From the NCBI GenBank assembly GCA_016182655.1, contig JACPGB010000024.1, forward strand, positions 94,549-158,548: a stretch of DNA of 64,000 nucleotides, given 5' to 3'. Source of the stretch: Deltaproteobacteria bacterium (lineage in GTDB: Bacteria > Desulfobacterota > GWC2-55-46). Shown here piece after piece: positions 35,029-40,262 of the stretch. The position numbers were made by a program, and so were the translations under genes. Every line of letters starts with the position of its first letter. The stretch's first letter is position 1. The notes beneath the pieces are model-generated. The model saw only the letters and a list, made by a program, of their open reading frames with translations. It made no database searches and was not told the origin of the DNA.

Positions 35029-35080
35029 TCTTTTAGTCCCCTCTCCCCTTGTGGGAGAGGGCGGAGGGTGAGGGGGTCCG
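35029..35080. repeat. Palindromic repeat E, copy 2
   Basis: GTCTTTTAGTCCCCTCTCCC, then CTTGTGGGAGAGGGCGGAG and GGTGAGGGGG. It matches 24432-24483 in inverted orientation and lies between flxC and the small gene. Confidence 0.75.
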
Positions 35081-35320: not shown

Positions 35321-35785
35321 TTATTCAGCCGCCTTTTCCTTTAAACCCTTGTACTCCATGAAAGGCCCGAGGGCCTTTATCTCGTCCGTTATCTTGTTGA
35401 TGAGGTCTACCCACTTTATCGCTTCGGACGCCGATACCCACGAAAAATGGAGCCGCCTCATGTCTATGCCCGTGAATTCCATAAGATGCTTGAAGCCTAT
35501 CCAGCGCCTCCGCGCGTGGTAGTTGCCGGTCGTATAGTGGCAGTCGCCGGGGTGGCACCCGGAGACCAGCACCCCATCGGCCCCGTTCTCGAATGCCTTT
35601 ATGATGAAGAGCGGGTCGATCCTCCCGGTGCAGGGGAGCTTTATGATGCGGACATTCGGCCTGTACTCCATCCTGCTCGTGCCAGCGAGGTCCGCGCCCG
35701 CGTAGGTGCACCAGTTGCAGACGAAGGCCATTATCTTCGGCTCGAAGCCGCCTGTTGGTTCCGTATGTGTATTGTGTTCCGTCAT
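35321..35785 (-). CDS. flxD: Hydrogenase iron-sulfur subunit (MvhD/FlxD family)
   Basis: 154 aa. IMAFVCNWCTYAGADLAGTSRM near the N-terminus, VRIIKLPCTGRIDPLFIIKAFENGADGVLVSGCHPGDCHY in the middle and RRRWIGFKHLMEFTGID after it are the classic MvhD pattern, with Cys residues binding a 2Fe-2S cluster. In methanogens MvhD links a hydrogenase to HdrA; in Flx systems FlxD links NADH dehydrogenase proteins to HdrABC. No hydrogenase genes are present here, so the Flx reading fits. A DUF559 gene and repeats separate it from hdrA. Confidence 0.92.
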   Translation of the reverse strand: MTEHNTHTEPTGGFEPKIMAFVCNWCTYAGADLAGTSRMEYRPNVRIIKLPCTGRIDPLFIIKAFENGADGVLVSGCHPGDCHYTTGNYHARRRWIGFKHLMEFTGIDMRRLHFSWVSASEAIKWVDLINKITDEIKALGPFMEYKGLKEKAAE

Positions 35786-35814: not shown

Positions 35815-35851
35815 TAACCCCTCTTTTCTAAAGAGGGGTGCGGGGAGATTA
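35815..35851. repeat. Palindromic repeat B at the 3-prime end of the DUF559 gene
   Basis: CCCCTCTTTTCTAAAGAGGGG hairpin followed by TGCGGGGAGATTA. The stop codon of the DUF559 gene (TAA on the minus strand) is the first codon of this repeat. Confidence 0.8.
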
Positions 35852-36205
35852 CATCTTTTCGTGTATCTTCTCTATTACAGCCTCGATATTCAACAAGACA
35901 TCGATATCGGAAAACCTCAAGACCGAGAGCCCGTTGCTTCTCAAGGAGGCGTCTCTCACCTCGTCTTTTTTAGCGCCTTCTTCCTTATAATGCTCTCCTC
36001 CGTCTATCTCAATAACCAGCTTTGCCTTCGGGCAGTAAAAATCGACGATATAATTTCCTATTATCCTCTGCCTGTATACCTGAACTCCCTTGAGTTGCTT
36101 CCCTCTGATCCTCGACCAGACGAGCCTTTCGGCATCGGTCATGTTCGTTCTAAGCTTTTGCGACAGCCTCTTGAGCCTGGGATTATAAACGAGCATCTTA
36201 CCCAT
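35849..36205 (-). CDS. DUF559 solitary endonuclease-like protein
   Basis: 118 aa. NMTDAERLVWSRIRGKQLKG and QRIIGNYIVDFYCPKAKLVIEIDGGEHY are the DUF559 core, related to the very-short-patch-repair endonuclease fold; the V-D-F...E-I-D-G-G residues match a PD-(D/E)xK-like metal site. ASLRSNGLSVLRFSDIDVL closes the domain. It interrupts an otherwise continuous hdr-flx operon and lies between B-family palindromes on both sides, with its stop codon inside one. That suggests it arrived with the repeats. No methyltransferase is nearby, so it is not a standard Vsr repair gene. Function unknown. Confidence 0.85.
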   Translation of the reverse strand: MGKMLVYNPRLKRLSQKLRTNMTDAERLVWSRIRGKQLKGVQVYRQRIIGNYIVDFYCPKAKLVIEIDGGEHYKEEGAKKDEVRDASLRSNGLSVLRFSDIDVLLNIEAVIEKIHEKM

Positions 36206-36249
36206 AATCCCGGCCCCGTTTAGATAGATAAAAGGAGGAACAAACTTTC

Positions 36250-36485
36250 ATAATCCCCCTCAATCCCCCTTTAGAAAAGGGGGAGCAAACATCGAGCCTT
36301 TCATCCCCTCTTTCCTAAAGAGGGGTGAGGGGAGATTATCGAATATGCATTCTCCCTCTGCCTGTCCAACGGGATTTGCTATTTAAACCTCGGAATCCCC
36401 CACTTAAAGTCCTCATGCAAGGGGGAGCAAAACACCCTGCCTTTTATCCCCCTCTTTTCTAAAGAGGGGTGAGGGGAGATTATCC
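36250..36485. repeat. Palindromic repeat B, two tandem composite units
   Basis: The 301-bp gap 36206-36506 has no gene. Unit 1 (36250-36342) runs from TAATCCCCCTCAATCCCCCT through an AAAAGGGGGAGCAAAC hairpin to CCCCTCTTTCCTAAAGAGGGG and GAGGGGAGATTATC. Unit 2 (36392-36485) repeats this with GGAATCCCCCACTTAAAG, CAAGGGGGAGCAAAAC and CCCTCTTTTCTAAAGAGGGG. The two ends of each unit are inverted copies of each other. Confidence 0.8.
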
Positions 36486-36506: not shown

Positions 36507-38480
36507 TCAGAACGAATTTATCGCCGCAAAGACCTGTTCGTCGGTATATCCGCGGAGATCAATAGACTTCGACCTGCACGCCGCCACGCACACTCCGCAC
36601 CCCTGGCACACGCCCTCGTTCACCCTCGCGAGCCACTTAACTATGTTCCCCTGCCTGTCCTTTACCGACTCCCGCTCTATCGCCGAGTACGGGCAGGCGG
36701 TGAGACAGTCCCAACACGCGTTGCAGGTGGCCTTGTTTACGACCGATGTTATCGGCTCCCTCGCCATCTCGTCTGCGGAGAAGAGCGAGAGCGCCTTGGC
36801 CGCGGCGGCAGAGCCCTGCGCGACGGACTCCGGTATGTCCATCGGCCCCATGCATGTGCCAGCGAGGAATATGCCGGCGGTCACGGTCTCGACGGGTCTT
36901 AGCTTCGGGTGGTACTCGTTGTAGAACTTGTATTTGTCGTACCCGATGCCGAGCTTCTGGGCGAGCGTATCAGCGCCTTCTCTCGAAACTATGGCGGTGG
37001 CAAGCACGACCATGTCTGCCTCTATCTCGACCTGACTTCCGGAGAGCGTGTCCGCGCCCTGGACCATCACCTTGCCGTCCCGCTCGTAAACCCTGGAGAC
37101 GCGGCCACGGAGATACATCGCGTCGTCGTGCTCTATCGCCTTCCTTACGAACTCCTCGTACCTCTTTCCGCCTGAGCGGATGTCCATGTAGAAGACGAAC
37201 GACTGGCCGTCGTGGACCTTGTGCTTATATAACATCGTGTGCTTGGCCGTGTACATGCAACAGACCTTTGAGCAGTAGGAGACGCCCTTCTTCTCGTCCC
37301 TTGAGCCCACGCACTGTATGAAGACGACGTTCTTCGGCACCTTGCCGTCGGAGGGCCGCCTTATCTCGCCGCCCGTTGGGCCCGAGGACGACGCAAGCCG
37401 CTCGAACTGCATGCCGCTTATGACGTCCTTTATCCTGCCGTAGCCGTACTCCCCGAACCTCTCGTTCGGCATGAGCTGGTAGCCGGTGGCCACGACTATC
37501 GCGCCGACCTCTTCGGTCACGATCTTGTCTTCCATCTTGAAGTCTATGCACTTCGGGCCGCAGACTATCGCGCAAGCGCCGCACTTGTCCTTCTGAATCT
37601 TGGGGCAGTTTGGGGCGTCTATCACGGGCACGTTCGGCACCGACTGCGGGAAAGGCGTATATATTATCTTCCTCTTCGTCAAGCCGAGCTCGAACCCGCT
37701 CTCGGTCTTGAACGGGCACTTCTCCATGCACTCGCCGCAACCCGTGCACCGCTCCTCATCGACGAACTTCGACTTCCTTCTTATCTGGACCGTGAAGTTG
37801 CCGATGTAGCCGTCGACCTTCTCGACCTCCGAGTATGTGAGGAGGGTAATATTCTCATTGAGCTCGGCCTCGACCATCTTCGGCGTGAGTATACACTGCG
37901 AGCAGTCCATCGTGGGGAAGGTCTCGGAAAGCCTCGCCATGTTGCCGCCGATGGACGGCTCCTTCTCGACGAGTATGACTTCGCGTCCGCCCTCGGCTAT
38001 GTCGAGCGCGGCCTGGATGCCCGCGATGCCGCCGCCAATGACGAGCGCGCGCTTCTTTATCGGTATCTTTATCTTTTTCAGAGGCTTGTTTTTTTTGAGC
38101 CTCTCTATCGTCATCCTGGTCAGGTCGATGGATTTGACCGTGCCCACGGCCTTGGTCTTGTCGTGGTGGACCCAGGAGCACTGCTCGCGGATGTTCGTTA
38201 CCTCGCACTGGTAGGGGTTCAGCCCGGCGGCCTCGGCCGCCTTCCTGAAGGTCTTCTCGTGCATGTGCGGCGAGCAGGCGGAAACTATTATGCCGTCGAG
38301 CTTGTTGTCCTTTATAGCCTGCTTCAGCATGTCCTGGCCCGGAGACGAGCACATGAACTTGTAGTCGCAGGTGAATACGACGCCCGGGAGCTTCTTCATC
38401 TCCTCGGCGACCTTCTTGGTGTCGACGGTAGCCGCTATGTTATTTCCGCACTGGCAGACGAATACGCCTATTCTCGGCAT
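36507..38480 (-). CDS. hdrA: Heterodisulfide reductase-like subunit A (HdrA)
   Basis: 657 aa. The N-terminal FVCQCGNNIAATVD domain, then the FAD-binding domain VIGGGIAGIQAALDIAEGGREVILVEKEPSIGG (about 148-180), SETFPTMDCSQCILTPKM, and 4Fe-4S motifs CTGCGECMEKCP and CGACAIVCGPKCIDF. The second half has the FAD-domain return, VKTFLAGTCMGPMDIPESV-like sequence, and C-terminal ferredoxin motifs CNACWDCLTACPYSAI and CQGCGVCVAACRSKSI. HdrA holds the flavin thought to bifurcate electrons. It lies 10 bp from hdrB. It should split electrons from the Flx side between ferredoxin and the HdrB or fumarate branch. Confidence 0.93.
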   Translation of the reverse strand: MPRIGVFVCQCGNNIAATVDTKKVAEEMKKLPGVVFTCDYKFMCSSPGQDMLKQAIKDNKLDGIIVSACSPHMHEKTFRKAAEAAGLNPYQCEVTNIREQCSWVHHDKTKAVGTVKSIDLTRMTIERLKKNKPLKKIKIPIKKRALVIGGGIAGIQAALDIAEGGREVILVEKEPSIGGNMARLSETFPTMDCSQCILTPKMVEAELNENITLLTYSEVEKVDGYIGNFTVQIRRKSKFVDEERCTGCGECMEKCPFKTESGFELGLTKRKIIYTPFPQSVPNVPVIDAPNCPKIQKDKCGACAIVCGPKCIDFKMEDKIVTEEVGAIVVATGYQLMPNERFGEYGYGRIKDVISGMQFERLASSSGPTGGEIRRPSDGKVPKNVVFIQCVGSRDEKKGVSYCSKVCCMYTAKHTMLYKHKVHDGQSFVFYMDIRSGGKRYEEFVRKAIEHDDAMYLRGRVSRVYERDGKVMVQGADTLSGSQVEIEADMVVLATAIVSREGADTLAQKLGIGYDKYKFYNEYHPKLRPVETVTAGIFLAGTCMGPMDIPESVAQGSAAAAKALSLFSADEMAREPITSVVNKATCNACWDCLTACPYSAIERESVKDRQGNIVKWLARVNEGVCQGCGVCVAACRSKSIDLRGYTDEQVFAAINSF

Positions 38481-39891: not shown

Positions 39892-40262
39892 TTGTCATTG
39901 CGAGCGCAGCGAAGCAATCTCAGAGCTCTTCGTATAAGTCGACCCAATCCGCATTCATGCTACTTACTAATTTCTTTTTCTGTAGCCTTGAACCGCCTTT
40001 TATCTGTTTCTCTCTCGTTATTGCGCCATCAATACTGCCTGTTGTCTCGTAATAAACCAGCTTGCCTATATTGTACTTCTTAGTAAATCCGTCAATCAGT
40101 TTTTCCTTATGCTCATAGACCCGCCGTTTCAGGTCATGTGTGACGCCGGTATAAAGGACATTATTCCATTTGTTCGTCATTATATAGACATAATATTGTC
40201 TATCTTCTGGCATCCGCTACCGCTTGAGATTGCTTCGTCGCTTTCGCTCCTCGCAATGACAA
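39892..40262. repeat. Palindromic element D carrying a GIY-YIG gene
   Basis: Left end TTGTCATTGCGAGCGCAGCG + AAGCAATCTCA (39892-39922); right end TGAGATTGCTTCGTCGC ... CTCCTCGCAATGACAA (40225-40262). The ends are inverted copies and match those of the gene-less element at 31082-31227. The interior is the nuclease gene. Confidence 0.85.
39920..40213 (-). CDS. Small solitary GIY-YIG endonuclease-like protein
   Basis: 97 aa, a single GIY-YIG domain. YYVYIMTNKWNNVLYTGVTHD carries the YIM...YTG motif, LKRRVYEHKEK the catalytic Arg and conserved Tyr/His region, and GFTKKYNIGKLVYYETTGSID then AITREKQIKGGSR the metal-binding Glu. The C-terminus NADWVDLYEEL is followed by a stop that lies in the left arm of the flanking palindrome. 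It is transcribed with the operon but unrelated to it. Relatives (UPF0213-like/YhbQ) have no firm function; small GIY-YIG domains in mobile introns are homing nucleases. Base composition is more AT-rich than the neighbours. Confidence 0.87.
   Translation of the reverse strand: MPEDRQYYVYIMTNKWNNVLYTGVTHDLKRRVYEHKEKLIDGFTKKYNIGKLVYYETTGSIDGAITREKQIKGGSRLQKKKLVSSMNADWVDLYEEL

Follow-up and report, generated by a model that had tools for sequence, protein, structure and literature searches.

The DUF559 gene described here encodes a protein of 118 residues and lies in a 64,000-nucleotide stretch of DNA (the window) on contig 31 (C31) of a 2.9 Mb draft genome (G000). It is carried on the minus strand between its downstream neighbor flxD and its upstream neighbor, an HdrA-like gene, and is surrounded by short hairpins:

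35039..35074, minus strand: triplex hairpin of the Box C type (CCCTCACCC / CCCTCTCCC), also in this operon (detector)
35321..35785, minus strand: flxD, FlpD/MvhD-like subunit (PF02662, E 5e-52)
35817..35850, minus strand: right-end (3') triplex hairpin, TAATCTCCCC tail and stem CCCCTCTTT..AAAGAGGGG, holding the DUF559 stop codon (detector and sequence)
35849..36205, minus strand: DUF559 gene, YcjD-like, predicted Vsr-fold endonuclease (PF04480, E 2.7e-33)
36252..36284, plus strand: left-end (5') triplex hairpin of the partner type, tail AATCCCCCT, stem TCCCCCTTT (detector)
36305..36337, minus strand: additional right-type triplex hairpin, AATCTCCCC / CCCCTCTTT (detector)
36395..36428, plus strand: degenerate left-type triplex hairpin (AATCCCCCAC...GCAAGGGGGAGC), read from the sequence and under the detector threshold
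36449..36481, minus strand: additional right-type triplex hairpin, AATCTCCCC / CCCCTCTTT (detector)
36507..38480, minus strand: HdrA-like subunit (profile match)

An initial annotation had placed the gene amid hairpins of a family it called B, with the form CCCCTCTTT-NNN-AAAGAGGGG and GAGGGGAGATTA-type tails, and these are found at 35818, 36305, and 36449. It had also noted that the stop codon doubles as the first codon of one copy, and the TAA is indeed the complement of TTA at 35849-35851, within the tail of the right hairpin. The two tandem copies said to lie behind the gene are present (36305 and 36449, the latter a 144 bp direct repeat of the former), but because the gene is on the minus strand they are upstream of it. 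Likewise, the gene is flanked on both sides, but not by the same hairpin: the 5' copy, which had been overlooked, is an inverted sister type (AATCCCCCTCAATCCCCCTTTAGAAAAGGGGGA) that reads CCCCCTTT..AAAGGGGG with its tail GGGGGATTA pointing at the DUF559 gene. The order along the gene is thus left hairpin (36252-36284), DUF559, and the TAATCTCCCC tail with the right hairpin (35817-35850), the two flanking hairpins being inverted and inward-facing. An uninterrupted flxD-hdrA junction had been proposed as a check, and in several relatives (G002, G010, and others) only a plain gap of 15-171 bp, without DUF559, separates the two genes. Most relatives lack the gene at this position; it is present in G004 and G026, and the gap holds hairpins only in G009, G013, G020, G016, and G029. 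At the relatives' loci L112, L113, L116, L119, L123, L130, and L138, the gap holds a different dispersed element of ~110-150 bp with the structure CCAGATGC..AGGAAGGGCAAGGG..TGTATGTGAGGATT..GCCCTGACA..GCAGATGGGCGTTTA.

The window protein scores 114.5 bits against PF04480 (curated cut-off 20.6), which places it in the DUF559/YcjD family; YcjD was assigned to the PD-(D/E)XK nucleases by earlier work. Its predicted model (pLDDT 88) matches 3hrl (NGO0050) with a Z score of 15.0, the homing endonuclease I-Bth0305I, its second-best PDB match, with 11.2, and Vsr with 10.2, and a sequence search returned 3hrl at E 3e-32 and 3r3p at E 1e-3. Residues E26, D55, E66, D68, H72, D81, and R84 are invariant in alignments A1 and A2. 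On the basis of the model and the alignments, the protein is predicted to be a Vsr-like PD-(D/E)XK nuclease with catalytic-type residues intact.

Each repeat element consists of a 9-bp hairpin and a tail which, rather than being the arbitrary sequence it had been taken for, mirrors the pyrimidine arm of the stem, with A standing in for T at some positions (AATCTCCCC/CCCCTCTTT; CCCTCACCC/CCCTCTCCC; AATCCACCC/CCCTCCTTT). A stem-plus-mirror-tail detector, by which the mirror tails are perfect over 9 nt, finds 18 elements in the window versus 0 in three shuffles, and the genome contains ~30 copies of the window hairpin at ≤1 mismatch, with 0 for a reversed-pattern control. Among 179 gene-adjacent hairpins picked by stem alone, the stem-tail mirror match was 0.85; permuting the tails gave 0.70, with 0.73 as the highest value in 1000 permutations. 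Each of the 17 inverted pairs on C31 (17/17) joins two different end types, 10 of the pairs being tail-in and 7 tail-out. Holder et al. (2015) described an intrastrand triplex motif (TM) that includes E. coli Box C and in which a type A and a type B element form inverted pairs (PMC4666352). The window repeat, with its hairpin, mirror tail, and two-type pairing, is this published Box C / intrastrand triplex motif; the palindromes noted by the initial annotation are real, but the known motif went unrecognized. In MG1655, Box C is present in 23 copies, all intergenic and variable across strains, and the E. coli copies include one in the ycjD-fabI interval; a mobility gene near the motifs was not found in that work (PMC4666352). 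Published work has shown triplex formation in solution for the motif of E. coli alone, and describes triplex motifs as sites of instability. That the hairpins might be plain operon terminators had been raised as an objection, but an inverted, inward-facing pair is unlike a terminator, and one paper reports that such motifs have no promoter or terminator activity. A third triplex family on C31, CCCTCCCCT/TCCCCTCCC with CCCCCACCC/CCCTCCCCC, is present in ~20 copies on the contig; the genome has no DUF559 gene that belongs to it, making it possibly an orphan family.

The host genome holds a second DUF559 gene (L002), and hairpins of another family stand on both sides of it. Scanning GTDB genomes with the window protein returned 80 loci from many phyla, 76 of them with enough flanking sequence. 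An element lies within 200 bp on the left at 47/76 loci, on the right at 42/76, and on both sides at 30/76, versus 1/173 on both sides and 18/173 on any side for control open reading frames from the same contigs. The nearest left element faces the DUF559 gene in 46 of 47 cases and the nearest right element in 31 of 42. In a second set of 59 loci from the host's own phylum, for which flanks were not used in selection, 53 have an element within 200 bp and 15 have one on both sides; of 47 left elements, 44 point toward the gene. The detector finds one side only in 38 of these 53, and the commonest arrangement is a single hairpin just 5' of the DUF559 start codon. The objection that DUF559 genes elsewhere would lack the hairpins therefore failed, as most of them have one. 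A simple flanking inverted-repeat score was rejected as a measure because it overlooks hetero-type ends and undercounts. In Clostridia (L107-L109, L089, L095, L096, and L102), DUF559 is flanked on one or both sides by CACCTCATCCG, a variable hairpin, and CCTTCCCCTCAAGGGGAAGG, a related element in which a further hairpin separates tail from stem; the detector misses this type, and L107-L109 were recognized by eye.

Hairpin type follows the protein. Mapped onto a tree of 91 DUF559 proteins, the type of the 5' element (TT-ending versus C-only stems) requires 3 changes versus 30 when labels are shuffled, and 0 of 500 shuffles were as low as 3. Small clades share exact motifs (e.g., TCCCCACCC/CCCTCCCCT), and in one genome (G278) at least 5 DUF559 paralogs differ in hairpin type, each having its own. 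In 395 genomes of the host's phylum (tables transcribed by hand), at least 5 TT-type elements occur in 48/101 genomes with a strong DUF559 match (E below about 1e-9, a cut set by eye) versus 21/294 without one (OR 11.8, p 8e-18; within-family permutation p ≤ 5e-5), and the reversed pattern is almost absent. In the 21 of 69 genomes that have at least 5 hairpins and no strong match, the gene may have been lost, it may be missing from draft genomes, or the hairpins may be spread otherwise. The family search gave no E. coli match although YcjD is a DUF559 protein, so the presence calls are imperfect. By linkage, inward orientation, co-divergence, and co-occurrence, DUF559 is the partner gene of the TM hairpins. 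Our search of openly accessible papers found none linking DUF559 or GIY-YIG proteins to palindromes.

In E. coli, ycjD is present in 3365/5426 complete genomes, between sapF and fabI, and adjoins degenerate as well as intact copies of Box C. Box C-like copies per genome number 1-3 in Nissle and similar strains, 12 in O157:H7, and 14-26 in many others. These counts suggestively track the presence of ycjD, and the low-count strains appear to be lineages without it.

Several genomes indicate what is dispersed as a unit. G103 carries two DUF559 genes that are separated by 5 kb and share 75% identity across ~594 bp; this homology starts and stops exactly at the outer edges of the 5' and 3' hairpins, respectively, with unrelated flanks. 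G298 has three copies that are 95-100% alike with different 3' flanks and that sit at contig ends, as repeats do, and the G278 paralogs have 403-485 bp in common around the gene and hairpin. Gene-less pairs look like deletion derivatives, since the 17 pairs on C31 all combine two types as the gene-bearing unit does. Over ~80 kb of synteny between G000 and G003, the hairpins are absent from the orthologous gaps; no base-exact boundaries were obtained from this comparison, the intergenic DNA being too diverged or filled by other repeats. In E. coli, strains differ in whether they have a hairpin pair at phnP-yjdP and gabP-gabT, which could reflect either gain or loss, and the glnP-glnH hairpin is nearly fixed and uninformative on this point. 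A second apparent ycjD place in ETEC6 proved to be merely an IS1 insertion. Neither a target-site duplication (the ends are inverted) nor a clean, base-exact empty site or recent transposition was found in the relatives or at the E. coli sites.

The initial annotation had drawn a parallel to a nearby GIY-YIG gene between inverted palindromes, and this arrangement is as described:

39896..39920, plus strand: short-type CATTGCGAGCGCAGCGAAGCAATCT end of the GIY-YIG unit (C31:134444-134468)
39920..40213, minus strand: GIY-YIG nuclease gene (PF01541, E 1.5e-13)
40227..40258, minus strand: long-type CATTGCGAGGAGCGAAAGCGACGAAGCAATCT end of the GIY-YIG unit (C31:134775-134806)

The gene thus has a short CATTGCGAG...CAATCT palindrome at one end and a long one at the other, a heterotypic, inverted pair. 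This palindrome has 41 copies in the genome, including at least 8 gene-less short-plus-long pairs. Among small GIY-YIG genes of relatives, 8/21 have a CATTGCGAG-type inverted palindrome on both sides, versus 0/10 UvrC controls, and other small GIY-YIG genes of the relatives have different inverted palindromes. The arrangement recurs at the relatives' loci L245, L247-L250, L253, and L254. Of the earlier proposal that small nucleases spread palindromic DNA or protect it, the nuclease-palindrome link is supported and general; of the two putative activities, we favor spreading because homologous units end at the hairpins.

Taken together, the data make it fairly probable that the left hairpin, the DUF559 gene, and the right hairpin form one mobile-element-like unit in which DUF559 is the dedicated nuclease of the hairpins. 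The same observations bear on other roles. DUF559 could be a resident guardian that resolves or nicks a replication-blocking hairpin or triplex, with the hairpins spread otherwise and hairpin-rich genomes needing the enzyme. Co-occurrence and co-divergence would be expected in that case too, triplex motifs are reported instability sites, and Vsr-type enzymes are repair nucleases. We consider this unlikely, as it leaves unexplained the position of the gene inside an inward-facing pair, the stop codon within a hairpin tail, and the paralog homology that ends at the outer edges of the hairpins, and many hairpin-rich genomes have no DUF559. The single hairpin just 5' of the start codon, the commonest layout, is what would be seen if the adjacent hairpin were an operator or attenuator by which DUF559 regulates itself, the dispersed copies being old decoys or unrelated terminators. 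Two-sided inverted pairs at 30/76 loci, tens to hundreds of dispersed copies distant from the gene, and the reported lack of promoter or terminator activity make such autoregulation distinctly improbable. Since target-site duplication and recent transposition were not found, a guarding or regulatory role retains some probability.

The resemblance of the predicted DUF559 fold to Vsr raises a role in very-short-patch repair of deaminated 5-methylcytosine, to which adjacency of the repeats would be incidental. One paper proposes this role for Caulobacter VsrA, a DUF559 protein without which a methyltransferase mutant no longer shows its DNA damage response. In the window, no methyltransferase lies beside the DUF559 gene, and the hairpin linkage far exceeds that of the control, so we regard this role as very unlikely. 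Least probable, and hardly to be expected, is that RAYT transposases spread the hairpins with DUF559 as a passenger. The host genome does have three RAYT-like Y1_Tnp genes (L027, L028, and L029, on contigs 53, 10, and 23), but each is bordered by its own palindrome family of another kind, one of the GTAG type (GTAGGTTGGGTTAGCGGAGCGTAACCCAAC); a B-type hairpin occurs near only one of the three, about 90 bp away, and hairpin type tracks the DUF559 tree.

If DUF559 does act as the dedicated nuclease of its own hairpins, the protein would recognize hairpins of its type by their stem-loop and mirror tail, probably on a strand exposed at a replication fork or in a cruciform, and would nick or cut there. 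Repair or replication could then place a copy of the two hairpins at a new site, whether or not the gene goes along. Gene-less pairs and single hairpins would be non-autonomous derivatives and stand to DUF559 as REPINs and REPs stand to RAYT transposases. We infer recognition, cleavage, the single-strand substrate, the copying route, and transposition from the arrangement of the genes and repeats. The chances appear evenly balanced that such units make up a hitherto unrecognized class of short mobile elements found throughout bacteria, with a Vsr-like DUF559 protein copying its own triplex-forming hairpins. If true, this would explain Box C in E. coli; Box C/triplex repeats are widespread in bacteria and have so far lacked an agent, the main paper reporting none (PMC4666352). 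A linked, conserved nuclease (YcjD of E. coli K-12) makes the origin and instability of these repeats directly testable in a laboratory strain and offers a candidate function for DUF559, a large family of unknown function. This link also suggests that partnerships between a nuclease and a palindrome have repeated origins, in proteins of unrelated folds.

Among known systems, Box C / PIT / TM elements (PMC4666352) share with the window element the C-rich hairpin with mirror tail, the intergenic location, and the A/B inverted pairs, but were described without a mobility gene, whereas here DUF559 is the linked nuclease. YcjD of E. coli and NGO0050 of N. gonorrhoeae (PDB 3hrl) belong to the same DUF559 family as the window protein; the function of YcjD is unknown, and its tie to a repeat family is made only here. 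I-Bth0305I (PDB 3r3p, EDxHD) is the closest solved structure of known function and shares the Vsr-like fold, but it is titled a mobile-intron homing endonuclease, while DUF559 is free-standing and tied to hairpins. Compared with classical IS elements and MITEs, the unit has inverted ends, and a duplication was not found in the relatives or in E. coli. The closest likeness is to REP/REPIN sequences and their RAYT (TnpA-REP) genes, the "REPtrons", in which a nuclease gene is flanked by its own short palindromes, gene-less inverted pairs are dispersed, and each enzyme has one family (PMC2817692, PMC3116915, PMC3733652). The DUF559 gene is likewise flanked by its own dispersed palindromes, and the Y1_Tnp genes of the host genome act as an internal parallel, with one palindrome family per nuclease. 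RAYTs are HUH tyrosine enzymes whose REPs carry GTAG, whereas this unit has a PD-(D/E)XK protein and an AATC/CACC-type mirror tail; its gene is DUF559, with the Y1_Tnp genes elsewhere, and the foot of its palindrome is AATCTCCCC or AATCCCCCT. Membership among RAYTs or REPtrons was therefore rejected, the HUH enzyme and GTAG being absent. By analogy, the DUF559 unit would work most like a REPtron, and the best reading is of a REPtron-like element in which a DUF559 nuclease may replace the HUH transposase.
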